Positions 3,998 through 44,600 of a stretch of 57,977 nt of DNA are shown here, in pieces (the stretch's first letter is position 1; each line of letters starts with the position of its first letter). Made by a program: the position numbers and the translations under genes. The stretch spans positions 1-57,977 of the forward strand of contig SVRZ01000014.1 of assembly GCA_015064555.1 (NCBI GenBank), in the 5' to 3' direction. The notes under the pieces are model-generated. The model was not told the origin of the DNA. It did not search any database and was given only the letters and a program-made list of their open reading frames with translations. Source of the DNA: Oscillospiraceae bacterium (GTDB lineage Bacteria > Bacillota > Clostridia > Oscillospirales > CAG-272).

Positions 3998-6900
3998 TTA
4001 TGATTTTTCTCTCAAAGTTATTGTATAGTCACTTAGATATACATCATAACCATTACTATCACTCCACATTGCCCATGTTCTATTACCTTTAAATGCAGAA
4101 ACACATATATCGGATAATGTATAATTATCATCTTTCCATTGAAGGTTAAACCACCAGTACTCATTATCCGAACACCAACGTTCGGAATCACTATTCTTTT
4201 TAAGTTGAATTGTTGTAAGGTTAGTACATCCCTCGAATGCGCCGGCTTTGATACATGTCAATGTCGACGGCAAAGAAATTCCAGATATTTTAGAACCTGC
4301 AAATATAGTGGTTAGTGTTCTTACACCTTCCGGAACTGTAATGTTTCCAGTTAATGCTTCGGGAACAGCAATAATAAACACTTGATAGGTAGTAGAGCCT
4401 TTATCGTATAATACACCATCTACACTATAATAGTATGTATTGCCACTAGCCACCGTAAACGTTTTCAATCTACTACAACCATCAAATGTATCATAATGAT
4501 GCGTACCTCCATAGTAATTTACTACGGAATCACCAGTTACCCATGCTTGCAAATCAAAAATTCTAGTTACATTTTTGGGTATATGAATTGTTTGTAGTGA
4601 AGAACATCCATAGAATGCTCCTTGATGAATAGTCACAACGCTATCAGGGATAGTTACACTAGTTAAAGAACTACAATTGGCAAAAATACACTCCGATAAT
4701 GCCTTCAAATTGTTAGGAAGCGTTACCTTAAAAAGAGATGAACAATTGATAAAAGCGAAATTACCAATGGATGTTACTGTGTTTGGAATTGAAACCGATT
4801 TTAATGTAGTACAACATGCAAACGCATGCGCGCCAATTCTTGTAATACTACCATCACTAGGAATCGTCACATTTGTACCATAGCCCCATAAAAGTGTCTT
4901 GTTGACTATGTCGATAAGCAAATTATTGTTAGATTTAAATGCGGTGTTTGCCGAATCTACGTATACCGATTGCAAACTAGTGTTAGCAAGAGCATCTTCG
5001 TCTATACTTGTAATATCCTTACCAACAACCAATTCATTTAAACTCTCAATATTATGCAATGCACCCTTATGTAATTCTCCTTTATTAACAGAAAGCGACT
5101 TTAAGGATGATGGAATATAATATACAACATTTTTAGTATCGTCGTCATTGTAACAATAATATTGTTCTATCGCTACCCCACCACTATAACTTGTTGTGCC
5201 AAAAATATATCCCAAAGGATACTTGTAACTATAATTCATAGAATAACCAATAAACGGTATCTCTAAACTGGTTATATTTCCACATCCGGATAACGCACCT
5301 GAACCAATTGTGACAACCGAATCAGGAATAATGATACTAGTCAAACCAAAACAGTTTTTAAATGCATATGCACCTATACTCGTCACCTTTTCGCCAATGT
5401 TGATATCGTTCAACATTGAGCAATTATAGAATGCACCATACAATATCTTTCCACCGGATATATTCACGGTCTTAAGTGAAGAAGGAATATAGTTGTAGGT
5501 GTAATCATAGGTGGATGATGAATAATACTGCTGTACCGAATTATATTGTCCCGTCGGGCCGCGTCCAAAAACATATCCAAACAATGTAGAAGACGATGCA
5601 GATGTAGCTGTTCCATTACTTCCTACAAACGGCAAAGTAATCGTTTGTAACGATCCACAACCTGCAAACGCACCTTGTCCAATCGAAGTAACCGTTTCCG
5701 GAACTACAATTTCTGTAACGCCAGATGCGCCTGCAAAGGCATATGCTCTTATAGAAGTAATTGTACTTGGAATTGTCAGTTTTCCTGTAACTACATTAGT
5801 TCCACCAATATAAAGATTGCCAGTGTAGTACATTGGATTAGAATATGCATTTTCAAAAGTTATACCACACCAACTATCCAAAGTGCCCTTATAAGAGAGC
5901 TTTGTTAAGCCTGTACAGCCTTCGAACACCGATTGACCAATGGAAACAATTCCGCTTGGCAACGTAACTGAAGTGATATTTTCGCATTTTATGAATGCAT
6001 AATCACTTATTTGCGTTACACTTGACGACAAAGTAATCTCAGTAAGTTCCACATCGTTAATATGCAGTTTGCCTACATAGTATAAGGGGTTGGCATAAGT
6101 ATTTTCAAATACAATACCGCACCAAGTATCAACACTTCCGAGATAATTTACTTTGGTAAGACTTGTGCAACCTTCGAACGACGATTGACCAATGGAAACA
6201 ATTCCACTAGGCAGCGTAACCGAAGTGATATTTTCGCATTTTATGAATGCATAATCACTTATTTGCGTTACACTTGACGACAAAGTAATCTCAGTAAGTT
6301 CCACATTATTAATATGCAGTTTGCCTACATAGTACAAGGGATTGGCATAAGTATTTTCAAATACGATACCACTCCAAGTATCAACACTTCCGAGATAATT
6401 AACTTTGGTAAGACTTGTGCATCCTTCAAATGCCGATTTCCCGATTGATATAACCGCACTAGGAATTGTAATCGAAATTATACTAGTTTGATTTTGGAAT
6501 GCATATTCATAAATTCCATAATTTTTACCGTTATAATTATTCGGCAGCACAAGAGCCGTTTCCGAACCACTATATCCAATCAAATATACATTCGTGCCAT
6601 CATCGTAGAAAATAAATCCATTATCATCTACTTTAACTCCTGCAGAGTTTTCATCGGTAACAATTCTTTCTGCGTAATATCCTACATAACCGTAAGAAGA
6701 CGAGCCTGCGGTGATACCAAGAGCTGATTTGTTAACAACTTCAATTAATTTGTTGCAGTAATAGAACGCATTTGAACCAATTGAGTTAACGGAAGTACCA
6801 AGAGTAACGGTCGTAAGTTTTTTGTTGTTATAGAAAGCGTTAGAGCCTATCTTTGAAACTCCATCACCTATAATCACGTTACTCAAATTAGTTGCCCCAT

Positions 6901-9900
6901 AAAATGCATAATCACCAATCTCAGTAACCATATTCGGTATTGTCAATTTCGTTACTTTGGTATAATTGTAGAATGCGTATTTATATATTGCATACGCTTT
7001 GTCCTGATAAGTTTCGGGAAGAACAATATTGGTTGCATCTCCATGATAAGCAATCAAATACACCATTGTACCGTCATCGTAGAACACATATCCATCTTCA
7101 TTTTTATTTAAATAAGATTCTTCTTTCGAAGCTGCGATATGCTGCGCGTAATAACCTGCGTATCCATAAGAACTAGAACCAACTTGGATGCTTAATTTGG
7201 ATTCATTTATAACTTCAATTAGTTTATAGCAATAATAGAATGCGTTTGAACCAATAGAAGTCACTTTGCTCCCAATTGTTATAGTGTACAATTTAGTGCA
7301 ATTTGCAAATGCATATGTTCCTATAGATGTAACACTACTACCCATTTGAACATTTGTTAAGTTCGTACATCCATAGAATGCTCTTTCGCTAATTGTTTTT
7401 ATTCCATTTCCAATTTTTACGCTTTCAAGTGATGAGCATCCGTTAAAAGCATATGTTCCAAGTGAAGTTATGTCATCAGACAAAACAATTTCCTTGATAC
7501 TAGTACAACCAGAAAACGCATATGAACCAATCGAAGTTTTTGCCTCGTCAAAATCCAATGTTTTGATACTTGTACAATACGCAAAGGCATATGTTCCAAT
7601 ACTTTCAACCGCACTAGGAATTGTGACTGATTCAAGCGATGTACATGATCTGAATGCATAATCACCAATGCTTACGAGGTTATTTGTAAATGAAATGTTT
7701 TTCAATGCACTGCAATAAGCAAATGCGTAGTTTCCAATACTAGTAAGGTTATCGCCAAACTCGACATTGGTTAATTTAGTACAGTTGTAGAATGCACCTT
7801 CTTCGATCTTAATAACATTCGCAAAAGTTACGGTCTCTAATTTAGAACAACCTGAGAATGCGTAACTATTAATGTCCGTTATGTTTTCTGTACCGGTAAT
7901 CTCTACGAGATTTGAGCAATTGTAAAATGCATAAGTATTAACTGCCTCAATTCTAGAAGACAACTTCACAGAGGTCAGATTGGTACATCCATAGAATGCG
8001 TAATCTGCAAGTTCCGTAGTATTAAGGGTTACAGTCTCAATGTTAGCACAGTTATAAAATGCCCCATACTGCAAATTGCCACCATTAATAATTACAGTTT
8101 TAAGACTGCTAGGTATGTAGTAAGTTGTCGATGAACTACCATAAGACTGTCTTGTAGATGTTCCACCTTCATAAGAGTCTGTGCCAAACACAAAACCAAA
8201 CAAAGAATTTGCAGACGGTTCGGTTATATCAGAACTTCCTCCAACAAAAGGTAGTGTTATTTGTTTCAAACTACTACATCCCGAAAAAGCACCTTTTCCT
8301 ATTTTAGTAACCGAATTGGGCACACTAATAGATTCAACAGTTGTATTGTTTGCAAATGCTTTTTCTGCGATCTCTGTGCATCCATCCGCAACAACAACAT
8401 TTTTGCTTGTTCCCGTATAATTTGTTAATACAATATTCGAACCATTTGATTTATACGTATAACCATTACCGGAAACAATATAAGGATACTCTGCCATCAC
8501 AGTATTGCCAGCGTAATCAGTTGCCGTCACTTGTAAATAAACCAAATTTCCAATGGCCATTTCTCCCTTAAGTGTGACTTCTGAATATACTTCTTCTCCA
8601 AACGTATCAGTCACCGTAAAGAAGTAAGCATAATTTACACCGACTTCTAACACATCTTTGGTTTGGGTGATTGTAGGCATACCATAAACCATAATGTTAG
8701 GTATTGCCTCACTATAAACCTTATTACCAACTTTATCAGTCGCAACCAAATAAATGGTAATAGTTTTGCCAGCTTCCAAGGTAAACCCTTCGGCGGCTTC
8801 TATTGAAATGTCGCACAAATTACCAAAACTGTCTGTTGCAGTGGCATAGAATTCTTCACCTTTGCTAGTCAGCTTTATAAAGTTACTTGCGCCAGCCATG
8901 TAGCCGATATCATTCTGTTTGAACTTCTGCTCAAAATCGATGTCATTAATATCATAAATGGCAATCGGTGCTGTATTGATAGTTGTAATATTGCCAACAC
9001 TATCTTCAGCCGTAAGTGTGTAAATTACATATTGACCTCCTACAAGCACCGTATCAGTAGAAGCAACAACTTTGAGTTCATTGCCAAAACTATCTACTGC
9101 TTTCGCATTAAGAATATCGTTTGCACCAGTAAGAGTACACTTACCTCCTGCTTCGGGAGTTGAAGCACCTGTCACATAGAAGTATACATAAGAGCTAGAA
9201 CTGTATTTATAATTTCTTACATAGATTACATCGCCAGCATTTACACTGAAGGAAACAGATGACCACGAAGTAGAAGACAGCAAAGTTTCTGCTTTTATTT
9301 CCTTACCTTGTGTTACGTTATACACATAGAAGTAATTCCGGTAGGAAGAAGAACTTGAACTGTTTCTGAAATAAAGCTTGTATGTACCGCTAGTCAATGC
9401 TGTGAAATAAGTATATCTTGCCGACGAACTACTAGTTCCTGAATTGGATGCAGAATAATAGTTACTACTGCTATTGTAATTTCTTATGTTAATGGCAGTA
9501 TTACTATAGCCAGATGTACTCATGCTATGCCAACCTGCATAAACAGTAACATCTCCAACAATATTTTTACTGAAATCGAAAATTTCAGTACATTCAGAAT
9601 CAACATACCATCCAGTGAATATGTATCCGCTTCTACTTGGAATCGATGGATAGGTTAATCCAACTGTTGCAGATATGGTTTGCTTCGCAGGAGCAGTTCC
9701 TGTACCTCCGTTAAGATAAAATGTAACGGTATGAGTTGCATTTTCTGCAGTAACATCATCAGTAATATCTATTGAATCTCGATCGTACGTGATAACGGGC
9801 GCACCATAAATTTTTACAGAGTACTCTTTATTAGTTGTATTGCCCGCAATATCAGTTGCAGAAACCTTGCATACTACTATATTGCCACCCTTGATTTCAC

Positions 9901-12900
9901 CTTCAATCGTTAAAGAAACATTAAGAGCGTTACCAAAAGAGTCCTGTGCTGTAATACCTAATGCATCTATGGTAATCAAATCGGTTTCTTTGAAATCTGT
10001 TTTTGTAGGTGCTGTGATTGTAGGCGATCCATAAACCGAAACAGAAACATCCACATACGAAGTATTACCTTTCGAGTCTGTCGCAGTTAATCTAATAACA
10101 ATCACATTTCCGGCAGACATGGTTCCGCTATATCGTGTTGCACTAACAGTTACTGTTTCGCCAAAACTATCAACAGCAGAAAGATTAAAGAGCGTGGAAT
10201 TAATAGTATCAGTAGTTTTTATTACTGTTTTTGTTGTATCATAGGAAATTACAGGCGCACCATATACCATAACATCTTCGATGTATCCATAAGTGGAGTT
10301 TCCGGCAATATCCTTGGCTTCTATAACAATAGTAACATAATCACCTGCTTCGTAATAACCGTCCACATATACATCAATCGCGGTTGATGCACCGTAGGTG
10401 TCAGTTCCAGAAGCATTATACCAACTTGCGCTTAAACCATCCTTAACATTAAAATACTTAATGGTATTATCAAAAGTTAATGTAGGAGAGCCGTAAACTT
10501 TAATATTGCTTATAGTCAACACACCAGTTCCAACTTGAGGTTTAAATCTAATTGTAATTGTTTCTCCAGCGGCAACTGTTCCGTCGATGGAGTCAAGGGC
10601 AAACACAACTAGATCTCCATTGGTATCAAGACACATTACGCTAAATAGTTCAGCCGTAATTTCGTCATCTACGCTGATATATGTTTTGTCAATATCGTAT
10701 TTAATATCGCCTAATCCGTATTTCACCCATTTAGCATAAAGAATTATGTTTTCGTCGGGCATAACAGATGCATTATAAACATCTCCTGAACAAGCAGCAT
10801 TATCATACCAGCCGACAAAAGACCAATTAGCTCTAGTAGTAATATATTGATTTATGTTAAAGCGAGTACCTGCGGCTAAAGTAACATCATCAATCTCGCT
10901 ACCGCCATTAGTAACAAATATTACGGTATAAACCGTTCTTTCCCACTTTGATACAAGAGTTGTTTCAGAGTCTTTATCCCAAACCTTAACACTAGCTCCA
11001 GTTGCATCAGTGTACATTACGCCGTTCTCATCGGCGTATCCAAGGAATTTGTATCCCTCTCTTGCATTCGGCACATTAAGTGTGAAGTTCTGTCCGTATG
11101 TGGCAGATCCTTTGGATGCAGTAATAGCATATCCTCCGTCCATAACAGTCGTGCTACCTGCAATACTTACAGTAGCAGTGCCTGTGGTAGTAGAGCTGAA
11201 TGCTCTCGCTCCAATGTAATAAGTTTCGCCTGCGGTTACGTTGTAAACGATGAGGAAGTTACTTTCGTCGTAAGCGTTATCGTCATCTTGAGCAAGTGCA
11301 ACCATCTCGGAGCTGTAAAGCACGCCAAAAGTATCGTAGCTTCCCGATGCGGTGATCGTAATATTACCGGATACGAGGGGTATGAACATAAGCATCTGCT
11401 CATACTTTCCATTAAGAGTAACATTCGAGCTGCCGTTTATTGCAATGGCAGTCGCATTCTCAACCTTTACCCATTTTGCATAGAGGGTTGTGTCGCTCGT
11501 TACAACAGCGGTAAAGTCATAGAGAGAGCCTGTGCAGTTCTCATTCTCATACCAACCTGCAAAGATATAGCCATCTCTTGTAGGTACGGTAGGATATTTA
11601 AGAGTTGCAGTAGGAGTTACCGTCTGACTTGCAATTGTTCCTTCTGCTCCGTTAAGGTTGAAGGATACAACATAGCTTGCTTCTTCATTACCGTCAAGCC
11701 ATACATTGTAAGTATTTGCAGTAAACTTAGCATAAATAGTCTTGTTTCCGATCTCGCCGCCGGCAACGGTAGTTACGGCAGTTGCATAGGAATCATCGGT
11801 GTACCAACCGCCAAACGCATGACCTTTCAAGGTTGCATCTGCGAGAGTGGTCAGATCTGTTTCATTCGTATAGGTGAGAATGTTGCTATGGGTTGCGCCG
11901 TCTGCCGTTACATAAGTAATGGTATATTCGGTAGCAGTCCATTTTGCGAACAACTCTACTACACCATAGCTTCCTGATGCAATTTCAGAAATTGCTTCTG
12001 TACATTCCGCATCATTATACCAACCTGCAAAGCTGTAACCAGTCTTTGTGGGAGCTTTAAGAGTAATCTTCGCGCTCGTTATGGTGTAAGTTGCAGGGTT
12101 GAATGAATTATTAGTTCCACCATTGAGGTTGTAGGTAATGTTATAGGTTTCAAGATTCCACTTTGCATACAGAGTAATATTATCTGCAGGCATGGTGGAG
12201 AATGTGTATCTGCTCGTAAGCGAAGCATTCGAATACCAACCTGCAAAGGTGTATCCGTTCTTCGAAGGTGCTTCGGGTGCGGTTACGCTAGTTGCGTAGT
12301 TCTGTGTAATTGCAGAAACGCTAGTTCCACCGTTGGATTCAAAGCTAATGGTGTATTGGTTGACTGAATAATGTGCGTAAAGAGTGATCTTTCCGCTAGT
12401 GCCGACCTTAAGCTCGGTTACAACTGAGGAAGTAAATTCCGCATCCGTGAACCAACCGATAAAGGTATATCCTACCTTGCTCGGAGCGTAAAGCTCGATC
12501 TTATCTTCCACGGTGTATTCGACAACGTTGTTTTCGGAGTTCGTACCGCCATTCAATACATACTCGATTTCATAAACAACAGGAGTCCATTTTGCGTAAA
12601 GAGTGATATCTTCTGCAGGTTGAGTTGCGAAGGAATAAACATTTTTCAATGCTGCATCGCTGTACCAGCCTGCAAAGGTGTAGTGTTCCTTCGTAGGTGC
12701 AACAGGTGCAGAGATAGCCGTTCCTTCTACATTGCTGATAGAATTAACAGGGCTACCGCCGTTGCTTTCAAAGGTTATGGTGGAGACATAATCCCAATGA
12801 GCATAGAGGATGATGTTTCCTGTGGTTCCGGCAGTAATTCCGGTTACCTTGCTACCACCTTCAGCTGCAGTATACCATCCCTTGAACACATATCCCGAAA

Positions 12901-15586
12901 GAGTTGCGTTATTGAAGGTGATGCTGTCGGTTATGATATATGTTGCCGGGTTTCCTGTAGCCGTTCCACCATAGGTTACATAGTCAATGGTATAAGTGAT
13001 AGGAGTCCATTTAGCATAAAGTGTAATATCTCCACTCGATCCCTTGGTAATGGTAAGGTTTGCAGGAGTTGTGCATTCTTCGTTGGCAAACCAACCGTCG
13101 AAGGTGTAACCCTCTTTGGTAAGAGGATAGATTGTAAATTCCTCACTGGCTGCGTTGTAGCGAGTGGGGTTTTTATTTGTTGAACCGTTCACATTGTTGT
13201 AGGTAATGTCGTATTCTTCAAGACCAAACTGTGCGTATACCGTGATATTTCCGCTTGTGCCTTTAGTTACGCCTGTTACCTTTGTACCTGTACCAACATT
13301 CTTCTCGGTAAACCAGCCGTCGAAGGTGTATCCTGCGGTCTTGCAGACGAGAGTTGCAAACTCGAACTCATCTTCTACGGTGTAGGTGGTCTTTACAACT
13401 GTTCCTTCTGCATAGTCACCGATTGCTTTGTCATAAAGGAATGTGATAGCGTATTCAACTGCTTCCCATTTTGCGTAAAGCATAACAGGTCCAGTAGTGC
13501 CAACCGAAATTTCGGTAACCTCATTATTAAACTCAGCATCACTGTACCAACCAAGGAAGGTATAGTGATCCTTGCTTGCATCAACGAGTGCGAGAGGTTG
13601 ATCTTCTACATTATAGGTTGTCGGATTGCTATTCGTTGCGCCTGATACATTGTTGTATGTAATGCCGTAAGTAACGAGAGAGTAAACAGCCTTTATTGTA
13701 ATATCTTCCGTACCGAGAGTATAACTCTCCCATGCCCCTGTGTATCCCACATGGTTAGGAACGGCAGGCTCGGTAATAGACTCACTCTCTACCGTGAACT
13801 TAACTTTTCCGACCTCAGTATCGCCATCCATGAAGGTTGCGGTGTACTCAATAGCTTCCCACTTTGCGTAAAGCACAACAGGTCCGGTAGTGCCAACCGA
13901 AATTTCGGTAACCTCATTATTAAACTCAGCATCACTGTACCAACCAAGGAAGGTATAGTGATCCTTGCTTGCATCAACGAGTGCGAGAGGCTGATCTTCT
14001 ACATTATAGGTTGTCGGATTGCTATTCGTTGCGCCTGATACATTGTTGTATGTAATGCCGTAAGTAACGAGAGAGTAAACAGCCTTTATTGTAATATCTT
14101 CCGTACCGAGAGTATAACTCTCCCATGCCCCTGTGTATCCCACATGGTTAGGAACGGCAGGCTCGGTAATAGACTCACTCTCTACCGTGAACTTAACTTT
14201 TCCGACCTCAGTATCGCCATCCATGAAGGTTGCGGTATACTCAATAGCTTCCCATCTTGCGTAAAGCGCAACATCGCCAGTCGTACCTACAGATATTTCA
14301 GTCACTCTGTTCGTGAATGCAGCATCAGAATACCAACCAAGGAAAGTATAATGATCCTTGCTTGCATCAACTAGTGTGAGAGGCTGATCTTCTACATTAT
14401 AGGTTGCAGGGTTGTTGTTCGTTGTTCCTGATACATTGTTATAAGTAATACCATAGCTAATAAGCGTATACACTGCATTTACCGTAATATTTTCCGTGCC
14501 AAGAGAGTAGCTCTCCCATGCACCTGTGTATCCCACATGGTTAGGAACAGCAGGCTCGGTGATGGATTCTGTTACTACCGTGAACTTAACAGTTTCAACA
14601 ATGGTATCACCATCCTTGAAGGTTACTGTATATTCAATAAGCTCCCATTTTGCATAGAGATTGATGTCACCGATAGTACCAATAGCAATTTCACTTACTT
14701 TGTTAGTAAGCGCTGCATCGGTATACCAACCAAGGAAACGGTAACCATCTTTGCTTGCATCAGAAAGTGCAAGAGGTTGATCTTCTACATCATAAGCTAT
14801 CGGATTGCTATTAGTCGCACCATCTACGTTATGATAGGTAATATCATAGCCAATTACGCTCCATTTTGCCGTAAGCGTAATATTTCCTGTGCTTCCTTTT
14901 GCAATCTCGGTTACTTTTTCATCTCCGTTGTACCATCCCTCAAACACATAACCGGTCTTTGAAAGATCCGAAAGAGTGATGGTATCAGTATTCACATTGT
15001 AGCTGGTAACGTTACTGTTTACCGCATCCATTGTATTGCCGTAGGAGATAGTATAGTTATTGATTTCAAATTTGGCATAAAGGGTGATTGCTCCCTTCGA
15101 GCCTGCCGAAACAGATTCTACCTTGGTGGTATATGCTGCATCGGAATACCAACCAACAAAGGTATATCCTTGTCTTTCAGCAGCGGACAAGGCAAAACTG
15201 TCCTCTATCGTGTACGATACAGGATTGCTATGCGTGCCACCGTCATTTTCGTATGTAATGTCATATTTAATCGCGCTGAACTTTGCGTAAACAGACATAT
15301 CGCTTGAAATGGGAGCGTCCAGCAAAGAATTAGCCGTAAAGGGCTTGCTCCACACGTCTTTATCCCAATACCAACCATCGAAGGTATATCCTTCTTTGGT
15401 AGGATTTTCGGGAATGGCTACTACCTCAGAGCCATTTGTGCTTATTGTAGAATAACTTTCACCGTCCACTTTGAAGGACAGATTGAAGTTCTCAACTTTG
15501 CCACCGCAAGCAGAAAAAGCGAACATACTCACAATAAGCATTAACAAGCATAAGACACTTATTGTAAATCTTTTCTTGTTAGTCAT
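3998..15586 (-). CDS. Giant surface lipoprotein with InlB B-repeats, Ig-like domains and BspA-type LRRs
   Basis: The protein is 3862 aa. The ATG at 15586 is chosen because GGAGG lies 8 nt upstream. Residues 1-30 form a lipoprotein signal with lipobox FSAC. Residues about 35-1360 hold around 17 InlB/Listeria-Bacteroides B-repeats (pattern GYTFxGWYxD...LYAKW), and three more follow later. About 1380-1480 resembles a pre-peptidase C-terminal fold (NVTAGETYYIGA). About 1640-2360 has repeated Ig/HYR-like domains (A-DSFGN, ATDxxGN, VYGxPxI) and a Ser/Tyr-rich stretch near 2020-2140. From about 2370 to the end are LRR_5 repeats (xxIGxYAFxxCxxLxxVxIP). B-repeats and LRR_5 mediate adhesion and protein or host contact in known surface proteins; no enzyme domain is seen. 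No sortase motif, so the lipid is the only anchor. The LRR half is visibly AT-richer than neighbouring genes. A structured leader RNA with a terminator precedes it. Confidence 0.9.
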   Translation of the reverse strand: MTNKKRFTISVLCLLMLIVSMFAFSACGGKVENFNLSFKVDGESYSTISTNGSEVVAIPENPTKEGYTFDGWYWDKDVWSKPFTANSLLDAPISSDMSVYAKFSAIKYDITYENDGGTHSNPVSYTIEDSFALSAAERQGYTFVGWYSDAAYTTKVESVSAGSKGAITLYAKFEINNYTISYGNTMDAVNSNVTSYNVNTDTITLSDLSKTGYVFEGWYNGDEKVTEIAKGSTGNITLTAKWSVIGYDITYHNVDGATNSNPIAYDVEDQPLALSDASKDGYRFLGWYTDAALTNKVSEIAIGTIGDINLYAKWELIEYTVTFKDGDTIVETVKFTVVTESITEPAVPNHVGYTGAWESYSLGTENITVNAVYTLISYGITYNNVSGTTNNNPATYNVEDQPLTLVDASKDHYTFLGWYSDAAFTNRVTEISVGTTGDVALYARWEAIEYTATFMDGDTEVGKVKFTVESESITEPAVPNHVGYTGAWESYTLGTEDITIKAVYSLVTYGITYNNVSGATNSNPTTYNVEDQPLALVDASKDHYTFLGWYSDAEFNNEVTEISVGTTGPVVLYAKWEAIEYTATFMDGDTEVGKVKFTVESESITEPAVPNHVGYTGAWESYTLGTEDITIKAVYSLVTYGITYNNVSGATNSNPTTYNVEDQPLALVDASKDHYTFLGWYSDAEFNNEVTEISVGTTGPVMLYAKWEAVEYAITFLYDKAIGDYAEGTVVKTTYTVEDEFEFATLVCKTAGYTFDGWFTEKNVGTGTKVTGVTKGTSGNITVYAQFGLEEYDITYNNVNGSTNKNPTRYNAASEEFTIYPLTKEGYTFDGWFANEECTTPANLTITKGSSGDITLYAKWTPITYTIDYVTYGGTATGNPATYIITDSITFNNATLSGYVFKGWYTAAEGGSKVTGITAGTTGNIILYAHWDYVSTITFESNGGSPVNSISNVEGTAISAPVAPTKEHYTFAGWYSDAALKNVYSFATQPAEDITLYAKWTPVVYEIEYVLNGGTNSENNVVEYTVEDKIELYAPSKVGYTFIGWFTDAEFTSSVVTELKVGTSGKITLYAHYSVNQYTISFESNGGTSVSAITQNYATSVTAPEAPSKNGYTFAGWYSNASLTSRYTFSTMPADNITLYAKWNLETYNITYNLNGGTNNSFNPATYTITSAKITLKAPTKTGYSFAGWYNDAECTEAISEIASGSYGVVELFAKWTATEYTITYVTADGATHSNILTYTNETDLTTLADATLKGHAFGGWYTDDSYATAVTTVAGGEIGNKTIYAKFTANTYNVWLDGNEEASYVVSFNLNGAEGTIASQTVTPTATLKYPTVPTRDGYIFAGWYENENCTGSLYDFTAVVTSDTTLYAKWVKVENATAIAINGSSNVTLNGKYEQMLMFIPLVSGNITITASGSYDTFGVLYSSEMVALAQDDDNAYDESNFLIVYNVTAGETYYIGARAFSSTTTGTATVSIAGSTTVMDGGYAITASKGSATYGQNFTLNVPNAREGYKFLGYADENGVMYTDATGASVKVWDKDSETTLVSKWERTVYTVIFVTNGGSEIDDVTLAAGTRFNINQYITTRANWSFVGWYDNAACSGDVYNASVMPDENIILYAKWVKYGLGDIKYDIDKTYISVDDEITAELFSVMCLDTNGDLVVFALDSIDGTVAAGETITIRFKPQVGTGVLTISNIKVYGSPTLTFDNTIKYFNVKDGLSASWYNASGTDTYGASTAIDVYVDGYYEAGDYVTIVIEAKDIAGNSTYGYIEDVMVYGAPVISYDTTKTVIKTTDTINSTLFNLSAVDSFGETVTVSATRYSGTMSAGNVIVIRLTATDSKGNTSYVDVSVSVYGSPTITAPTKTDFKETDLITIDALGITAQDSFGNALNVSLTIEGEIKGGNIVVCKVSATDIAGNTTNKEYSVKIYGAPVITYDRDSIDITDDVTAENATHTVTFYLNGGTGTAPAKQTISATVGLTYPSIPSRSGYIFTGWYVDSECTEIFDFSKNIVGDVTVYAGWHSMSTSGYSNTAINIRNYNSSSNYYSASNSGTSSSSARYTYFTALTSGTYKLYFRNSSSSSSYRNYFYVYNVTQGKEIKAETLLSSTSWSSVSFSVNAGDVIYVRNYKYSSSSYVYFYVTGASTPEAGGKCTLTGANDILNAKAVDSFGNELKVVASTDTVLVGGQYVIYTLTAEDSVGNITTINTAPIAIYDINDIDFEQKFKQNDIGYMAGASNFIKLTSKGEEFYATATDSFGNLCDISIEAAEGFTLEAGKTITIYLVATDKVGNKVYSEAIPNIMVYGMPTITQTKDVLEVGVNYAYFFTVTDTFGEEVYSEVTLKGEMAIGNLVYLQVTATDYAGNTVMAEYPYIVSGNGYTYKSNGSNIVLTNYTGTSKNVVVADGCTEIAEKAFANNTTVESISVPNSVTKIGKGAFSGCSSLKQITLPFVGGSSDITEPSANSLFGFVFGTDSYEGGTSTRQSYGSSSTTYYIPSSLKTVIINGGNLQYGAFYNCANIETVTLNTTELADYAFYGCTNLTSVKLSSRIEAVNTYAFYNCSNLVEITGTENITDINSYAFSGCSKLETVTFANVIKIEEGAFYNCTKLTNVEFGDNLTSIGNYAFAYCSALKNISFTNNLVSIGDYAFRSCTSLESVTIPSAVESIGTYAFAYCTSIKTLDFDEAKTSIGSYAFSGCTSIKEIVLSDDITSLGTYAFNGCSSLESVKIGNGIKTISERAFYGCTNLTNVQMGSSVTSIGTYAFANCTKLYTITIGSKVTSIGSNAFYYCYKLIEVINESKLSIQVGSSSYGYAGYYAQHIAASKEESYLNKNEDGYVFYDDGTMVYLIAYHGDATNIVLPETYQDKAYAIYKYAFYNYTKVTKLTIPNMVTEIGDYAFYGATNLSNVIIGDGVSKIGSNAFYNNKKLTTVTLGTSVNSIGSNAFYYCNKLIEVVNKSALGITAGSSSYGYVGYYAERIVTDENSAGVKVDDNGFIFYDDGTNVYLIGYSGSETALVLPNNYNGKNYGIYEYAFQNQTSIISITIPSAVISIGKSAFEGCTSLTKVNYLGSVDTWSGIVFENTYANPLYYVGKLHINNVELTEITLSSSVTQISDYAFIKCENITSVTLPSGIVSIGQSSFEGCTSLTKVNYLGSVDTWCGIVFENTYANPLYYVGKLHINDVELTEITLSSSVTQISDYAFIKCENITSVTLPSGIVSIGQSVFEGCTGLTKLSYKGTLDSWCGITFENAYSNPMYYTGNLYIGGTNVVTGKLTIPSTITSIRAYAFAGASGVTEIVVPETVTSIGQGAFAGCGSLQTITLPFVGSNGTATSASSSTLFGYVFGRGPTGQYNSVQQYYSSSTYDYTYNYIPSSLKTVNISGGKILYGAFYNCSMLNDINIGEKVTSIGAYAFKNCFGLTSIIIPDSVVTIGSGALSGCGNITSLEIPFIGYSMNYSYKYPLGYIFGTTSYSGGVAIEQYYCYNDDDTKNVVYYIPSSLKSLSVNKGELHKGALHNIESLNELVVGKDITSIDEDALANTSLQSVYVDSANTAFKSNNNLLIDIVNKTLLWGYGTNVTIPSDGSITRIGAHAFACCTTLKSVSIPNTVTSIGNFAFINCSSLFKVTLPNNLKALSECIFANCSSLTSVTIPDSVVTIHQGAFYGCSSLQTIHIPKNVTRIFDLQAWVTGDSVVNYYGGTHHYDTFDGCSRLKTFTVASGNTYYYSVDGVLYDKGSTTYQVFIIAVPEALTGNITVPEGVRTLTTIFAGSKISGISLPSTLTCIKAGAFEGCTNLTTIQLKKNSDSERWCSDNEYWWFNLQWKDDNYTLSDICVSAFKGNRTWAMWSDSNGYDVYLSDYTITLREKS
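5941..6444 (-). repeat. 252-nt tandem duplication in the LRR region
   Basis: Two adjacent copies (5941-6192 and 6193-6444) differ at only scattered positions. Each codes for 84 residues with the landmarks YLGSVDTW, YANPLYYVGKLHIN and VTLPSGIVSIGQS. A weaker third unit lies next to them towards 5800. The period is in frame, so unequal crossing over would change repeat number without breaking the gene. Confidence 0.8.
13470..14255 (-). repeat. 393-nt tandem duplication in the B-repeat region
   Basis: Two adjacent 393-nt units (about 13470-13862 and 13863-14255) are nearly identical at DNA level, and a third, more diverged unit follows to about 14650. Each codes for 131 residues: one variant module (VPNHVGYTGAWESY) plus one B-repeat (DHYTFLGWYSDAEF). 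The near identity points to a recent duplication or gene conversion. Confidence 0.85.
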
Positions 15587-15637
15587 TTTTTGTTCCTCCA
15601 TGATCTTAATTATTTGTAATTGCTTGAAACACGAAAT

Positions 15638-15665
15638 AAAAAAGGCGCTAACCGAAGTTAACGCC
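15638..15665 (-). terminator. Intrinsic terminator inside the giant gene's leader
   Basis: On the minus strand GGCGTTAAC pairs perfectly with GTTAGCGCC (one G-T) around a TTCG tetraloop and is followed by six T. It lies 50 nt before the start codon, so the 11.6-kb gene is transcribed only by readthrough or antitermination unless another promoter exists. Confidence 0.85.
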
Positions 15666-15860
15666 TAAAAAACGCAAACTCCGATAGTCGCCAAACTAAT
15701 TAATCCTTATGTAACGTAGCGCATAAAACGCTCACATTCTTATGTGGATGGAATTTGCATTTTTATCAAATTCAAACACATAAGAACGCAAAAAAGAGTA
15801 TAGTACCCCCTTGTAAAAAGAGACTGCGTTCTATACGTTACATTATTTAATTAGTTTGGC
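15638..15860 (-). ncRNA. Structured leader RNA or independent ncRNA upstream of the giant lipoprotein gene
   Basis: The predicted transcript start of the promoter at 15868-15896 coincides with the first base of a long closing helix. GCCAAACTAATTAA at the 5' end pairs perfectly with TTAATTAGTTTGGC about 170 nt later, and GTAACGTA pairs with TACGTTAC just inside. Within this closed domain are GAACGCA/TGCGTTC enclosing an ACAAGGGGGTACTATACTC segment, CTTATGTG/CACATAAG extended by GAATTTG/CAAATTC, and AGCG/CGCT. About 25 nt later comes a perfect 9-bp TTCG-capped terminator hairpin with T6 (15638-15665). The order promoter, closed multibranch domain, terminator, gene is that of a riboswitch or attenuator. 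It could also be a free-standing RNA of about 223 nt. I cannot assign it to a known class. Confidence 0.65.
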
Positions 15861-15867
15861 AATTTAT

Positions 15868-15896
15868 ATTATACTACAAATTTTGGAATATTTCAA
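15868..15896 (-). promoter_or_regulatory. Sigma-A promoter of the leader RNA and giant lipoprotein gene
   Basis: TTGAAA (15891-15896), 17-nt spacer and TATAAT (15868-15873) on the minus strand. The start is expected near 15860. Confidence 0.8.
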
Positions 15897-15921
15897 GTAG
15901 TTTCATATTATAAGGTAGTAT

Positions 15922-15965
15922 AAATGCGAAAAATCCATCAAAAACTTTCGTCCTTGATGGATTTT
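15922..15965 (-). terminator. Terminator of the protease operon
   Basis: AAAATCCATCAA pairs with TTGATGGATTTT across a 12-nt loop, with T runs on either strand. It lies 70 nt past the protease stop codon and directly upstream of the giant gene's promoter, so it insulates the two units. Confidence 0.75.
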
Positions 15966-16036
15966 CCTAATTCATTAAAAAATCGTTGTCAATATTTTTC
16001 AAGATATCTCAATTGCGCTCGAACACATACAGCATT

Positions 16037-19000
16037 TTAAGTAAAATCCGTATCCTGCTCCGAAGGGAGGTCCGGAATTCGGCGCTTTTTGCGCACGGCT
16101 ACCGTTATGCCGAGCGAGGCACCTGCCGCTACAGCGAGCGAGGACACCGAAAGAAGGGTTATCGCGAGGGCATCCGGGCGGTACTCCGCGTGTACGGTGT
16201 GATCGCGATCAATGTCCACAAAGGTGTAGCTGTCGACCGCGCCTATGCTCACTCCGTCGATAACGACGTCACTGAGCTTACATCCAAAGCTCGGCGAGAA
16301 ATCTATTCTCAGGCTTCCGCCGCGCGGCGCAACCGCCGATTCGGATATTCTGCCGTGAGCCGAGCTTGATGTGGTTATGCTGAATGCCGCCTGCTTGAAG
16401 GATATCTCCACAAGAGTATCCTTGGTGACATCGGTAAGCGTGAAGGCATTCGCTATATCTACCATTACTCCGTCCAGCTTAATGTGATCAATAGCAAAGA
16501 ACTCGTCCGGAGTGATATTGACCGTCATATTCTCGCCGTGATATACCTCGGACACTCCCGTGCGGTCTGCGCTTCCGTTTTCTCCGCAGATGACGGTTAC
16601 GGAATGCTTTATCCTTTCAAACTCAACCGAGAGCGTCTGATCGGAGGAAACGTCCGAGAAGGTGTAGCTCGAAAGTGCGCCCTTTGACTCTCCGTTTACC
16701 TTGACGTCCCTTACCTTGTATCCCTCGTCGGGGGTGAAGATATACGTATGTGTATCAAAACGAGTGATAATATTATCTCCGTCGGGTGTTATACTGCCGT
16801 TTTCCGCAGGGAGCACCGACACGGTGTACTCCATAATCACCGGCTCATACTCGGCGGTATAGGTGACGTTTGCGCTGACAGTAGCGATCTCCTTATCCCA
16901 GCCTGTGAAGACATATCTGTAGAAGCCGTCATCCTCTCTTACGGGAGTGTCTGCAGAATCGGCGGTCTTGTTACTGAAAACAGGTCTCTCTCCGTAATAA
17001 TATGAATCCGAATAGATAAGGCTTCCGTCCCAATTTCTCCAATATACCGTGTAGCTCTTTCTCTCTCGGTTGACGATTATACGGCCGAGATCGGGCTCTG
17101 CCGAATTTACGCAGATCGACATTCTGTACCACTGATTTCCGACGAGGGTGAAGTTATTCGGCACCACGTATCGGTAGGCAGCCGTATCGGCAGGCTTCTT
17201 TATGAACAGATACACTATCTGTCCCGCATCGTAGGTGGCGGTGTTCTTATCTCCGCTCGTCGCGTTTATATCCGAGGAAAGGTAATGATCCTCAACGTAA
17301 GATCCGACAGAATAGGTAACATCAACGCTCTCTATGAGGATCTTTGCCGCCGAGCCGACGTCTATCTTCTTCATCTTATCTCTGCTGTCTATAATCAGGC
17401 TTTTTCTGTATATTCCCTTCTCCTCCAAGGTATATGTGGTGGCATTCGCGGGAATGTAGGTATACCCTCCGTTATCATCGAAGACCTCAACCACAAGCGT
17501 AAACTCGCTTCCGAAGCCCGGGAACGGAAGAACAGGAATAAGAGTCCCTATCGCTCTATCAGCCTCACCGCCCTGAAGGAATAGCTCCTTATCGGTGATG
17601 GTCGGGTGGAATGGCAGCTCCCTCACAGCAAAATAATCGGCGGGAATAACGTCGCCGTCATAGAATTTTTTTGTTTCGCCGTTTTTGACCGCGAGGATAT
17701 AGGCGGTCTTGACGTTATCACCGTAATTCAACGAAAGATAAACACCCTCGGTGAAGGTCACCTCTACCGAAACATCCTCGGAAAGCTCCTTCAGCACAAG
17801 GCCGTAGCTGTTGACCTCCGCGAGTCGCTTTGAGTCTATTGGTGTGCCGTTCAGCTTGATCTCGGATATGCACATACCCGACTTGGGCTTCAGAATATAT
17901 CTGACCGAGTCCTCTGAGGATATGCTGATGGTATCGGTAATGCTTGAGCTTCCCTCTCCTGTGAGAGTGATATCAATGCTGTAATAGTCTATCTCCTCCC
18001 AACGCGCATAAACGAAAAGGGTGCTCGAGTTGTTGTAATATTTTGTGTAATACGAGCCTGCGTGAACGCCGGGTGCTTCGCCCATATGATGAATGTCCTC
18101 CCAGCTTACACGGAAGACACCGTTATCGCCCTCGAGCTTTCTCGAGCCATTGCCGTAATCAAGATACCAGCCCGCAAAGGTATATCCCGGGCGTGTAGGC
18201 TCGTAGAGTAAAAGCTCGGTCTCGGGACTCGCAAGCTCGGTATGATAATTTTCACCGTTATTAACACCGCCGCCGAGGTCATAATATACGCGGACGGGCA
18301 AAAGCGAGGTGTCGGTACAATAAACAAAGGTGAAATTATACTCAAGCTCATAGCCCGATGCCGACCTTATAACGTAGCTTTGGGTAACGCTCTCTCCATT
18401 CTTTATCTCATAGGAGAGCTTCGGCATGGACATATTCATTTCGGAATAGACAGACTGCGCTGTCGGTAAGAATGTAACCTCTCCGGAAAGCTTGTCGGTG
18501 TAGATCACGTAATTCTTATCAGAGGATATAATGCTGTGAAATTCAAGATCCCTGCCCGGGTTAAAGGCAAAGCTATTGTTTTCATAATCGTACTCTATCT
18601 CCTCACCGATAAGACCGTGAGTGACGAAGAAGTTGTTTAAATAGGTGTCGCTTTTCTCGCCGTTTCCGTATCTCGTGAGCAGCTTATACTGACCGTAGGC
18701 GGCATTGTCTGCCGAGATTGAGAACCTGCGGCTTTCATTGTCGATACTGACGTCAAAGCGGTCGGTCACGTTATGACCGTCAAGGTATATATCAATGCCC
18801 GTTACTGCCGCGCCCTCGGATGCCAGATAGGAATACTCAAGGTCAACGTCATTGTAGAATATATTCTTCTGCTTTGTAAGAGCCGTCGTTGCAGTATAGT
18901 CGCCGTAATACTTGCCCTTCACGGCGGTGGGATAGGCATATCCCTGCTCTATTTTATCATAGAAATAGAGATCCTTATTCATATCAGGCTCATATCTGTA

Positions 19001-19849
19001 GCCCTGAACGATGCCGATGTTGTCATCGTCATAGAACACCAAGGAGATACCGTCCTTTCCGTTCTTCTCGGTGTAGGAATTGAGGATGATCCAAGCACCC
19101 TTGAATACGGTAGGGGTTGACGAGCCGTTAAGATAGAATTCCCTCTCGTAGTTATCGTTCCAGCCTATTACCGAAACCGCATGATTTGAGTTGGTATTAG
19201 TCTGATTCGGCTCAAGGCAATAAGAGCCGATGCCGTCATATACGAATCCCGTTCTGAAGGTGAAGGTCATATAGACACTGCCGTGCTCATATATATGCCT
19301 CTTTATTTCATCTACCTCGCTTGACGAAAAGCTCGTATCCTTATCGGTTACAAGGCAATCCGCAAGATCTATATCCGAATGCTTTTCATAGAAATTGTAG
19401 TAGTCCTCGGCATTTTCATTGCTTACCGTATAAGAATACTGATACGGAAGGTCGCACTCAAGCATCAATCCCGATTGCTTCATCGCATCGTACTGATAGG
19501 AGATCGTTCCGCCCTGACCTATATTATTGTGCTTCGTGGTAGTTGCATTCAACGCGACTCCCGTCCATAATTCGGAGAAATCGTAATACTCCGAGGTTGC
19601 CTTCATTATGGTTGTGGATGCCGACATCGTAGCCGCAAAATTCCAGCAATAGCCAAGACTGTCCTGGTTCTGCGCATAGACTATGTATTCATCCCTCATA
19701 CAGTACTCGGAGGGGAGCTCGGTGAGCTCTGCCGATACGTCTGTTCCGTCGGCATATGCGATATGACCACCTATAGGCGTGATAAATAAAAGTGAAGCTA
19801 AGATCAATAATACCGCTGTAGCAGAGGATATGATCGTTTTTGTTTTCAT
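16037..19849 (-). CDS. Secreted, membrane-anchored papain-like (C1) cysteine protease
   Basis: The protein is 1270 aa; the start at 19849 has AAAGGAAAG upstream. A signal peptide covers residues 1-33. Residues about 40-265 form a papain-type peptidase with the complete active site: Q62 (oxyanion hole), C68 in YCWNFAATMS, H223 in NHAVSVIGW and N257 in WIILNSY. After a linker comes a B-repeat-like module (PGYTFAGWYLD, about 550-660), another near 955-1025, and three tandem repeats of about 75 residues (SVLPAENGSI, VICGENGSAD, TSSSAHGRIS patterns). A hydrophobic segment near 1230-1252 followed by RKKRR and a short tail anchors the C-terminus in the membrane. The enzyme would face the outside and cut surface or environmental proteins. 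It is the last gene of an operon behind a DUF1349 protein and a flavin reductase-like protein. Confidence 0.85.
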   Translation of the reverse strand: MKTKTIISSATAVLLILASLLFITPIGGHIAYADGTDVSAELTELPSEYCMRDEYIVYAQNQDSLGYCWNFAATMSASTTIMKATSEYYDFSELWTGVALNATTTKHNNIGQGGTISYQYDAMKQSGLMLECDLPYQYSYTVSNENAEDYYNFYEKHSDIDLADCLVTDKDTSFSSSEVDEIKRHIYEHGSVYMTFTFRTGFVYDGIGSYCLEPNQTNTNSNHAVSVIGWNDNYEREFYLNGSSTPTVFKGAWIILNSYTEKNGKDGISLVFYDDDNIGIVQGYRYEPDMNKDLYFYDKIEQGYAYPTAVKGKYYGDYTATTALTKQKNIFYNDVDLEYSYLASEGAAVTGIDIYLDGHNVTDRFDVSIDNESRRFSISADNAAYGQYKLLTRYGNGEKSDTYLNNFFVTHGLIGEEIEYDYENNSFAFNPGRDLEFHSIISSDKNYVIYTDKLSGEVTFLPTAQSVYSEMNMSMPKLSYEIKNGESVTQSYVIRSASGYELEYNFTFVYCTDTSLLPVRVYYDLGGGVNNGENYHTELASPETELLLYEPTRPGYTFAGWYLDYGNGSRKLEGDNGVFRVSWEDIHHMGEAPGVHAGSYYTKYYNNSSTLFVYARWEEIDYYSIDITLTGEGSSSITDTISISSEDSVRYILKPKSGMCISEIKLNGTPIDSKRLAEVNSYGLVLKELSEDVSVEVTFTEGVYLSLNYGDNVKTAYILAVKNGETKKFYDGDVIPADYFAVRELPFHPTITDKELFLQGGEADRAIGTLIPVLPFPGFGSEFTLVVEVFDDNGGYTYIPANATTYTLEEKGIYRKSLIIDSRDKMKKIDVGSAAKILIESVDVTYSVGSYVEDHYLSSDINATSGDKNTATYDAGQIVYLFIKKPADTAAYRYVVPNNFTLVGNQWYRMSICVNSAEPDLGRIIVNRERKSYTVYWRNWDGSLIYSDSYYYGERPVFSNKTADSADTPVREDDGFYRYVFTGWDKEIATVSANVTYTAEYEPVIMEYTVSVLPAENGSITPDGDNIITRFDTHTYIFTPDEGYKVRDVKVNGESKGALSSYTFSDVSSDQTLSVEFERIKHSVTVICGENGSADRTGVSEVYHGENMTVNITPDEFFAIDHIKLDGVMVDIANAFTLTDVTKDTLVEISFKQAAFSITTSSSAHGRISESAVAPRGGSLRIDFSPSFGCKLSDVVIDGVSIGAVDSYTFVDIDRDHTVHAEYRPDALAITLLSVSSLAVAAGASLGITVAVRKKRRIPDLPSEQDTDFT

Positions 19850-41685: not shown

Positions 41686-44600
41686 TCAATTTTCAACTCC
41701 GATTACTGCACGTCTGTAATCGGCTGCACTCTCGCAATATTTTGCGAAGCGCAGAACAAGCTTTACGAGGTTATCGTTATTCTCGGTCTTTGCCCATTCG
41801 TAATAGCACCTGATGTGGCAGGAATCGCTCTCACCGTTTACGGTGTAGTCAACCGTTTCGGCAAGCTCGTATGCATAGAGCTTGACTTCAACGTACTTAC
41901 CATTAGCATCGCTTCCTTCCTCTGCCGCTACCGCTTTGCCGTTTATCGAGAATGCGAAATCGGATGCCTTAAATCCTTCCGCAAGATAGAATCTGAGTCC
42001 GGGCTTTGCGGTGAGGTTATAGGTAACAGCCGTGATGCCGAGAGTGGGCTTTTCTGCGCTGCCGTTCATCACGGGAGCACTGCCTTCATCATAATTCTCA
42101 CCAAGAAGCTCGTCTATCTTAGCAAGCGCCTCGGCATCGGTGGTGCCGAAGTATGCGTATGCAGCCTTAACGTAGGACAGAACGTCCTTTACAAGAGTCT
42201 TTTCAACAGATGTGATCTTCGAATCCGAAAGAAGCTTTTCTGCGTATCTCGGGATAGAGAAGTTGAATCTTCCTCTCAGTGTTTCTCCGTTCACCCTAAG
42301 GGTAGCAACAAGAGAAATATTTCTTGCCGCTTCTCTTGCGCCGAGGGTAACCGTCACAAGATAGTAGCCGTCCTTTTCGGTAAGACTCTTCATATCGACT
42401 GCCGCACCGTCAAGCTCCAGAGCCGTGAGGTTTTCGTGAATAGGAATGTAAATATTGAAGGTCAGCTCGCTTCCGAGAGTTATGCTTGCCTCGGGAACGA
42501 ATTCAAGCTCTGCCGCCGCCTCGGGCATCATTCTGTACACAACACTCTTTCCGTCCTCGGAGATCTTATGGAATACAAGTGCCGTTCCGTTCTCGGTGTA
42601 ATATACGGTTGTGGGCTTTGTATGAGTCTTCGGGAAGACGAAGGTGGTGTAATTTATACCGTCCTCGCGCTCGAAGCAGAATGTTGAGCCGCTTGTGACA
42701 TTCATGCCCTGAATTGCAGGCCTTACCGAGCCGAAAACGACCTTTCCGCCGATGAGCTTGACATTTGCGCCTATGCCCACGTGGCTAGCCCATATTTTCA
42801 TACTCGTGCTCTGACAGCCGGTAACGTCAATGTTGCAGTTTCTTACTATTACGTTATTATTGTGTATCTTTTGGGTATATCCGCTCGATGCCTGAGTATA
42901 AAGCAGTGCATAAGTCGGAAGAAGCGCGGTGTTCTCGGTGAGAACGAAGTCAAGACCGTCAAGGATTATATAGAAGTTATGAAGCTTCGAATAATCGGTG
43001 TTATCAAAGTAGCTGACTGTGCTTCCGTCCTCAAGAGTAACCGTAGGAACTCTGCCGGTTATTGCAGAGAATCTTACTATGGGATCCTTACCCACTATAA
43101 ACTTACCGTTCTTTACGGTTATGTAGCTGTTATATCCGCAAGCATAAGCCTCGGCTCTTATGAAGCCGTCAGCGCTTCCGCCGTTACCCATATTGACGGT
43201 GAAGCCCGCGAGATCTACAGTGAGCGAGCCATTGAGAGTGGATATGCTCTGAGCTCCGCTCGACTGCTTGTTCGTATCCATATCGAAGTCACGACGAAGG
43301 TAGATAACAGCACCGTCACCCGCCGCGCAAGCCTTCTGTGCAACGGTGGTAGTGAACGCAGTTCCTGCATATACGCAAGTGCCGTCCTTATCAAAGACTA
43401 CCCAAGGATACTTGAGCGCTGATACATAGGTTGATGTTATTTCTCCGTAGGGAGTTATCATCGGGAGAAGTCGGTATACCGTATTCGTTCCCTCAACGGC
43501 ATACTCGGAAAGACGGAGGTTGCCGATCTCGGCATCGTCCGCCGCACCGTAGGTAACGGTTGGGATGGCAGAGCCTGTGGGAATTGTAAGCTCTATATAT
43601 TTTCCATCCTTGCCCTTCGCATAGGTGCACACGCTTCCCGTACCCATACTTGTGAGCAGGAGCGTGCCGCCGCCGTCATGGCTCACGGTGCATCCTACTA
43701 CCGTAGCATTTATCGGAACATTATTGACCGATGATACTATATAATGCTTATCGGTCATTCCGCGAATGGTAAGCTCGCAATCCTTTACTATAAGATTGTT
43801 ATTGAAGCCCTGTGCCACGGTTCCGGATGCTCCGCCGTAGGATATCAGTCTGGTTCCGCTCTCGGCTGCATCCCAGCTTATCTCAAGCGAATCAAGAGTA
43901 ACGTAGAACTTGTGAGGATTTGTTGCGCTGGCGGAATCATAGCCCGAGGAGAATCTTGAGCCTATGGATGCATATCTTACGACAGGATCCTTACCGCCTA
44001 TTATTTTACCGTTAATAACGTTTATTATGCTGACATAACCGGCAATATGCGCCTCGCACCTGATAAAGCCGTCTGCAGAGCCGCCGTTGCCCATCGTAAG
44101 TGTATTGCCGCCAAGGTCTACCGTGATGGTGCCGTTGAGCGTAGAGATGCTGTTGGCTCCGCTCGCCTGCTTGTCGGTATCCATATTGAAGTTGCGGCGC
44201 AGATAAATTACAGCTCCGTCGCCCGCCGCACAAGCCTGCTTCGAAACCTCTGTGGTGAATAGAGTACCGCCGTATAGACACCTTCCGCTCTTATCAAATA
44301 CCACCCAGGGATAGTCCTCTATAGAGGCATATTCTTTGGATATATTGCCGTAAGGAGTGGAAAGACTGCTCTTGGTAAGCGTGTAGACGGTATTATCACC
44401 GCTCGTGCCTACCGCCTCAAGCTGCATTATTCCATTCGCCGATTCAAATCCGTTCGCCGGAACGGAATCGCCTGTGGGGAGAGTTATCTTAAGATATTCT
44501 CCATCCTCATTCTTGTTGAAGTATATCGAGCTTCCGGTGTTTTCCTTAAGCTCGTAAACGTTCAGATAAGAGCCGTTATCCGCTATTATCTCACATCCGT

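Follow-up and report, generated by a model that had tools for sequence, protein, structure and literature searches.

The window, a stretch of 57,977 nucleotides from an Oscillospiraceae bacterium, holds a large structured element (15634-15860, minus strand) upstream of a gene encoding a lipoprotein-type protein of 3862 amino acids with InlB/List_Bact repeats and BspA-type LRRs (3998-15586, minus strand). The question raised by this locus is whether the element controls the gene behind it, and by what means. Based on folding and comparative sequence analysis we consider it very probable that the element is an attenuator acting in cis, and we hold with good confidence that it is a riboswitch-type transcription attenuator and one copy of a Clostridia-wide family. 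The mechanism appears to be of a known kind, riboswitch-type attenuation, and the novelty appears to lie in the RNA family, in its scale and in its targets.

The leader and its promoter

A sequence-only reading of the window had proposed a 14-bp closing helix with an inner 8-bp helix and hairpins inside it, and all of these are present in the sequence and in the fold. From 5' to 3' the order is promoter, P1, P2, P3, P4 with its apical hairpin, the P1 3' strand, a strand that we call X, and the terminator, all on the minus strand. The closing helix P1, found by folding, pairs 15847-15860 with 15690-15703 over 14 bp. Within it, P2 consists of a 5' strand at 15826-15843, contributing 8 bp (ATGTAACG) and 10 bp (TATAGAACGC), and a 3' strand at 15709-15731 (segments 15709-15716 and 15722-15731), the inner 8-bp helix being that of 15836-15843 with 15709-15716. 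The P3 hairpin or box GGGGGTACTATACTCTTTTTT (15790-15810) is moderately conserved, and P4 (15777-15788 with 15735-15746), identified by folding and coupling, carries on top the apical hairpin GAATTTG/CAAATTC (15751-15773). The loop and 3' arm of this hairpin overlap the pseudoknot strand AAAAATGCAAATTCC (15750-15764), which has 15 bp with 15668-15682, a part of strand X (ATCGGAGTTTGCGTTTTT, 15668-15685). The second partner of X, the antiterminator partner, lies at 15651-15663 and comprises the 5' arm, the loop and the first 3' bases of the terminator. This intrinsic terminator, found by a terminator scan and by folding, is a hairpin of 10 bp with a TTCG loop (15643-15666) followed by a U-rich tract (15634-15642). 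Its TTCG cap and the distance of about 50 nt to the ATG at 15586 are as had been described, and a ribosome-binding site GGAGG is found at 15595-15599.

The leader folded at -81 kcal/mol, compared with a mean of -45.05 (sd 4.04) for 200 dinucleotide shuffles (z -8.9), and none of the 200 shuffles reached its stability. The segment ACAAGGGGGTACTATACTC had been taken for a conserved core, but in the 94 long copies of the family it was only moderately conserved, with columns mostly at 70-90% or lower; conservation is higher in P1, in the apical AAAAnGCaaattCC, in X and in the terminator, and a conserved AATA adjoins P1.

Upstream of P1 lies the promoter TTGAAA-17-TATAAT (15868-15896), which matches the consensus at 11 of 12 positions. 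Its predicted start falls on P1's first base, and 7 nt separate the -10 box from P1. A promoter scan, which as such is no evidence of function, gave no other promoter-like site on the same strand in 15400-16200, and none therefore between the terminator and the gene. The arrangement was also examined in 145 of 146 copies of the family, one being too near a contig end. At least 5 of 6 matches to the -10 box were found in 132 of the 145, and the gap between this box and P1 was exactly 6 nt in 126 of these 132. For the -35 box the same level was reached in 101 of the 145 copies, and in 3 of 145 when each had been base-shuffled once. The RNA should therefore start at or beside the first base of P1, and the promoter that the copies share is of the sigma-70 type and placed for a start at that base.

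Between the leader promoter and the upstream gene (16037-19849, minus strand; 1270 amino acids, with matches to papain-type cysteine protease and to InlB-type repeats) we read by eye a hairpin with a T-rich tail at 15929-15965 on the minus strand (AAAATCCATCAA...TTGATGGATTTTT). It is not among the entries of the terminator scan and may insulate the leader from the upstream gene.

The RNA family and its spread

Rfam 15 gave no match above the gathering score at the element, neither in the window nor in the relative loci scanned, and this included raiA, the check that had been suggested. The sub-threshold matches at the element (rli38, plant and animal miRNAs) appeared under permissive thresholds only and look like chance matches.

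A DNA search of the window's genome found three further places with E below 1e-4, one of them in two pieces and one with the 3' half only, and a weak match (C44, E 0.33) turned out to be a full copy. From four full copies we built the covariance model R1, which gave 22 matches in the same genome at E up to 10. From these we counted, once opposite-strand shadows and the three weakest had been set aside, about 14 full copies and one partial copy; the weakest accepted was L309 (E 0.016), and L049 was accepted by its scores alone. Among relatives, R1 matched 39 of 59 genomes in 10 of 24 genera, with 15 matches in G002 and 14 in G030. With E limited to 1e-4, its matches in the class-wide sample covered 85 of 391 genomes, belonging to 51 of 223 genera; as the class and phylum searches scored 5 (R1) or 7 (R2) candidates per genome, these class-wide figures are minimum values. 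A sample of 398 genomes from the whole phylum serves as a specificity control for R1 and R2, both of which matched only the window's own genome there; of the genomes listed in it at least 14 belong to the same order or class, and none of these matched. The window's own genome is included in all three counts (39 of 59, 85 of 391 and 1 of 398). Additionally, a pattern scan of named genomes returned at least 118 stretches, identified by the pattern alone; the 80 stretches listed among them are, by title, from Clostridia-type metagenome-assembled genomes, many of herbivore gut and one titled Bacillota.

For the comparisons described below, 119 model matches from 100 sources were reduced to 106 copies by dropping 13 weak opposite-strand shadows, and a further 40 and 23 places were read, including partial or degraded ones such as L285, L298, L311 and the first of L339. 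The copies fall into a long subtype of about 200-230 nt and a short subtype of about 140-185 nt. The short subtype is by eye often without P3 and keeps P1, the stem, the apical segment, X and the terminator; one of 42 short copies was without a U-run and was dropped. Both subtypes coexist in the same genomes, including that of the window (G000), and the model of the short subtype, R2, also recognises long copies, among them the window's.

Tandem pairs were seen at L063, L152, L153 and L339, most copies having their own promoter-like box. The partial or degraded copies L002 (3' half only), L285, L298 and L311 suggest turnover of the element. A phage collection gave one 51-nt match, which led to a full copy with an R1 score of 114 bits (L342, 338-535, plus strand); its scaffold is an unverified phage one of human faecal origin. 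The copy lies about 40 nt upstream of an ORF of 382 amino acids that resembles a DNA methyltransferase. The conserved 3' pattern of the family had no exact match in viral contigs, and no relative of the 3862-aa protein was found in them. A Gut-1 RNA (RF01706) was found near a copy at L293 (1350-1424), and a sub-threshold one in L003.

The two partners of strand X and the proposed switch

Coupling was tested by comparing how well a strand pairs with the partner from the same copy and with partners taken from other copies. The test covered 99 of the 106 copies, the anchor finder having failed for L083, L112, L139, L142, L147 and two copies of L153. Partners from the same copy paired much better, with z -26 for P1, -24 for P2, -35 for P4 and -21 for the terminator. 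The values for P1 and the terminator are inflated, since it was their own pairing that set the limits of these strands, which is not so for the strands of the pseudoknot and the antiterminator. Strand X was coupled to the apical loop (pseudoknot, z -13.6) and also to the terminator 5' arm and loop (antiterminator, z -8.5). The copies tested are related, and two control pairings on the same copies were flat (z +0.9 and -1.1). Removal of duplicate segments left 93 of the 99 copies and 36 of 41 short copies, and for the 36 unique X strands of the short subtype z was -10.3 for the pseudoknot and -9.6 for the antiterminator, with controls at 0.0 and -0.6.

Similarly, pairing was counted column by column in 94 copies, in an alignment that was fitted to P1 and whose model includes P1 and the terminator but leaves out both the pseudoknot and the antiterminator. 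The first 10 bp of P1 were 99.7% paired, with 7 of 10 pairs changed on both sides and 100 two-sided cells in P1. For the pseudoknot 97.9% of cells were paired and 8 of 15 pairs had changed on both sides, and for the antiterminator the values were 91.4% and 7 of 12. Sliding the partner by 1-3 columns gave 37-45% pairing for P1, 40-63% for the pseudoknot and 17-64% for the antiterminator. One antiterminator pair was open in 39 of 93 copies. Negative double cycles in the long subtype amounted to 16% for the pseudoknot and 21% for the antiterminator, a modest coupling that is explained by the conservation of X in this subtype. X and the terminator loop change together in L138, L154 and L131, and by eye also in L299, L302 and L306. 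The domain is conserved, structured and extensively covarying among its homologues, covariation being a check that the sequence-only reading had suggested.

X cannot pair with both of its partners, and the antiterminator and the terminator share the terminator 5' arm; by sequence and folding, these mutually exclusive pairings would set whether the terminator forms. In a transcript ending at the terminator loop, an antiterminator of at least 5 pairs folded in 97 of 99 copies. Full-length folds with ViennaRNA, which are without the pseudoknot, gave 54 antiterminators and 45 terminators. In the window copy the antiterminator (-14.0 to -14.9 kcal/mol) and the terminator (-14.1 kcal/mol) are about equal when the segment after P1 is folded alone, and the duplex of X with the apical loop (-16.8 kcal/mol) is set against an apical hairpin of -3.2 kcal/mol.

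In the mechanism that we propose, RNA polymerase would start at the first base of P1 and transcribe the closed multihelix domain, the putative sensor, after which strand X would emerge, and then the terminator just upstream of the ribosome-binding site. Formation of the pseudoknot between X and the apical loop would let the terminator form, so that transcription would stop and the gene would be off. If X is free, it would capture the 5' arm and loop of the terminator as they emerge, and the resulting antiterminator would allow read-through, with the gene on. A signal acting on the closed domain would set the accessibility of the apical loop to X. The folding balance and the shared strands make this sign, pseudoknot off and free X on, rather probable. 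Comparison of the sequences supports the promoter position, the closed domain, the terminator, both pairings of X, the position of the start codon, the spread of the family and the enrichment of its targets; what we infer is that termination and read-through take place and that the domain senses some ligand or factor. Copies that are terminated may in addition function as free RNAs.

A fuller account can be put forward tentatively, as one that may hold but is slightly less likely than not. According to it, the element belongs to a riboswitch class that Rfam does not recognise, present in about one fifth of the class-wide Clostridia sample and with up to about 15 copies per genome. All copies would sense one common signal and coordinately switch the lipoprotein and BspA/InlB-repeat surface proteome, through a competition of apical loop, X and terminator that is kept by three-way compensatory change.

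The attenuator could instead be controlled by a protein that binds the closed domain and blocks or causes the pseudoknot, with no small molecule involved, which we regard as possible though somewhat doubtful. This overlaps with the attenuator mechanism proposed above and competes only with its ligand-sensing form. The architecture is silent on what is sensed, and the many diverse targets per genome would suggest a global regulator. Against it, searches for two known families of antiterminator proteins gave no candidate: the window's genome (82% complete) and the copy-rich genomes G002, G030 and G035 yielded no ANTAR match, and CAT_RBD was found in none of 36 genomes of the genus. In the same four genomes GGDEF (PF00990) was not found either; among the 36, GGDEF was found in 5 and ANTAR in 5, and two of those with GGDEF (G007 and G021) also carry the RNA. 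That none of the three domains was found in the copy-rich genomes makes control by c-di-GMP, by ANTAR proteins or of the BglG type unlikely. For antitermination of the ANTAR or BglG type the searches gave no cognate protein in G000 (82% complete), G002, G030 and G035, and a c-di-GMP riboswitch is unlikely from the missing Rfam match together with the missing GGDEF in the window's genome. Attenuation by a leader peptide was also rejected, as an internal start with a strong ribosome-binding site (RBS) occurs in just 9 of 106 leaders.

It is improbable that the element represents a separate small RNA, about 220 nt long and complete with promoter and terminator, behind which the gene is incidental or transcribed on its own. 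The good -10 box in 132 of 145 copies together with the terminator would fit such an RNA, and so would the own promoter-like boxes of most tandem copies (L063, L152, L153). The position of the start codons, however, argues for a leader. A strong-RBS start with an ORF of at least 40 amino acids was found 5-60 nt past the element in 70 of 104 copies of the main set (2 of the 106 were dropped with less than 200 nt downstream); at random points the rate was 158 of 5000, and on the opposite side of the element 1 of 106. Under the same rule it was found in 20 of 40 and 10 of 23 copies of the two later sets, which take in partial copies. The 34 of 104 copies of the main set without such a start, some of them before degraded genes, would fit a free RNA, and so many were also without one in the later sets (20 of 40 and 13 of 23). 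With a looser rule (a site of at least 4 bases) a start lay behind 95 of 106 copies, at a median of 25 nt. Start codons so well placed favour a leader over a free RNA gene, and the element has, by position alone, the 5'-leader location of a riboswitch. The covariation of X with the terminator loop is as expected if termination is regulated, and in the window no second promoter-like site separates the terminator from the gene.

A mobile or recombination element scattered over the genome, whether MITE-like or similar to an attC cassette site, is very improbable: P1 does form terminal inverted repeats of the MITE kind, and there are many copies per genome and partial or degraded ones (L002, L285, L311), but P1 differs among copies with compensation, the promoter spacing is fixed, X is coupled to both loop and terminator, and a plasmid collection gave no match to the element. 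The ends of attC sites follow the consensus RYYYAAC/GTTRRRY, and ends of the RYYYAAC type were present in just 5 of 169 copies. No known mobile element was matched. The attenuator-like or riboswitch-like layout proposed from the window alone thus survives the Rfam, covariation, promoter and plasmid or mobile-element checks; the switch, in which the pseudoknot strand is also the antiterminator strand, and the class-wide family had escaped that reading.

Downstream genes and relation to known RNA systems

The first 380 amino acids of each of 109 downstream proteins were scanned with Pfam, after 17 of 126 ORFs judged doubtful had been left out. There were 20 proteins with BspA LRR_5, 8 with the Listeria-Bacteroides repeat and 5 of the MazE/AbrB type; zinc ribbons, lectin, SLH, bacterial PH and AMP-ligase were among the other matches listed. 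Of 88 downstream ORFs with 100 or more amino acids, 36 had lipobox-type N-termini, compared with 13 of 256 other ORFs of the same loci (Fisher p 1.8e-14), the lipobox being our own rough pattern with false positives (e.g. L129) and the background ORFs coming from a crude caller. By this sequence pattern, the targets of the RNA family are enriched in lipoprotein-type N-termini. The window has a second giant gene (41686-49092, minus strand; 2468 amino acids, Big_5 Ig-like domain), and the RNA models gave no copy upstream of it.

Several known RNA systems resemble the element in part. In preQ1-class riboswitches, which terminate transcription, one strand serves both the pseudoknot and the expression platform. 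Like these, our element is a 5' leader in which a pseudoknot competes with terminator and antiterminator through a shared strand, but its closed domain is much larger, its predicted start is at the first base of P1, and its targets are surface and accessory genes and not one pathway. T-box leaders also occur in several copies per genome, each choosing between terminator and antiterminator, as appears to be the case here. In contrast to them, the Rfam scans of the window and its relatives gave no T-box match, and the downstream Pfam families, as far as the first 25 of 55 go, are not aminoacylation genes. The c-di-GMP riboswitches precede surface-protein genes in Clostridia and share this kind of control with the element, which differs in having no Rfam match and no GGDEF in the window's genome, G002, G030 and G035. 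The raiA motif, a closed structured RNA of Bacillota and one of the families of the Rfam library, is alike in being a closed structured RNA in Clostridia; the window gave no raiA match even with E as high as 10, and the other loci scanned gave none above threshold.

An earlier description of the family was not found in the literature, where an unnamed entry in supplementary lists or a preprint is possible. The available parts of three papers on RNA discovery (PMC8040213, PMC11109978, PMC8632094) contain no description of it. In one of these, Fremin and Bhatt (2021; PMC8040213) reported 3161 candidate structured RNAs of human microbiomes, a list that could hold an unnamed member of the family, whereas the available part of their text describes no surface-gene leader of this kind.

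A widespread, multi-copy cis-regulatory RNA that Rfam does not recognise would represent an unannotated layer of gene control in gut Clostridia, and it would group surface proteins, mostly of unknown function, into one candidate regulon per genome. Finding the signal of the leaders would reveal what prompts a change of surface in these bacteria. The competition of three strands is conserved and would also be a clean natural system for the study of co-transcriptional strand exchange.

Some smaller gene families recur behind the element. A small Cys-rich family (ITGxELTPGxPxVCLGNGEQGFECCCDEC) was found behind both subtypes (L095, L104, L144, L289, L293, L306, L310); no Pfam match was obtained for L095 and L144 and no NCBIfam match for L095, L144 and L104, and some copies of the family look degraded. 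The short subtype precedes, in different families, genes that look alike by eye. One such pair is L151 and L328, where L151 is an AMP-binding enzyme by Pfam and L328 is alike by eye only; in the other, L154 and L337, the gene encodes an unnamed protein of 306-318 amino acids, again alike by eye.
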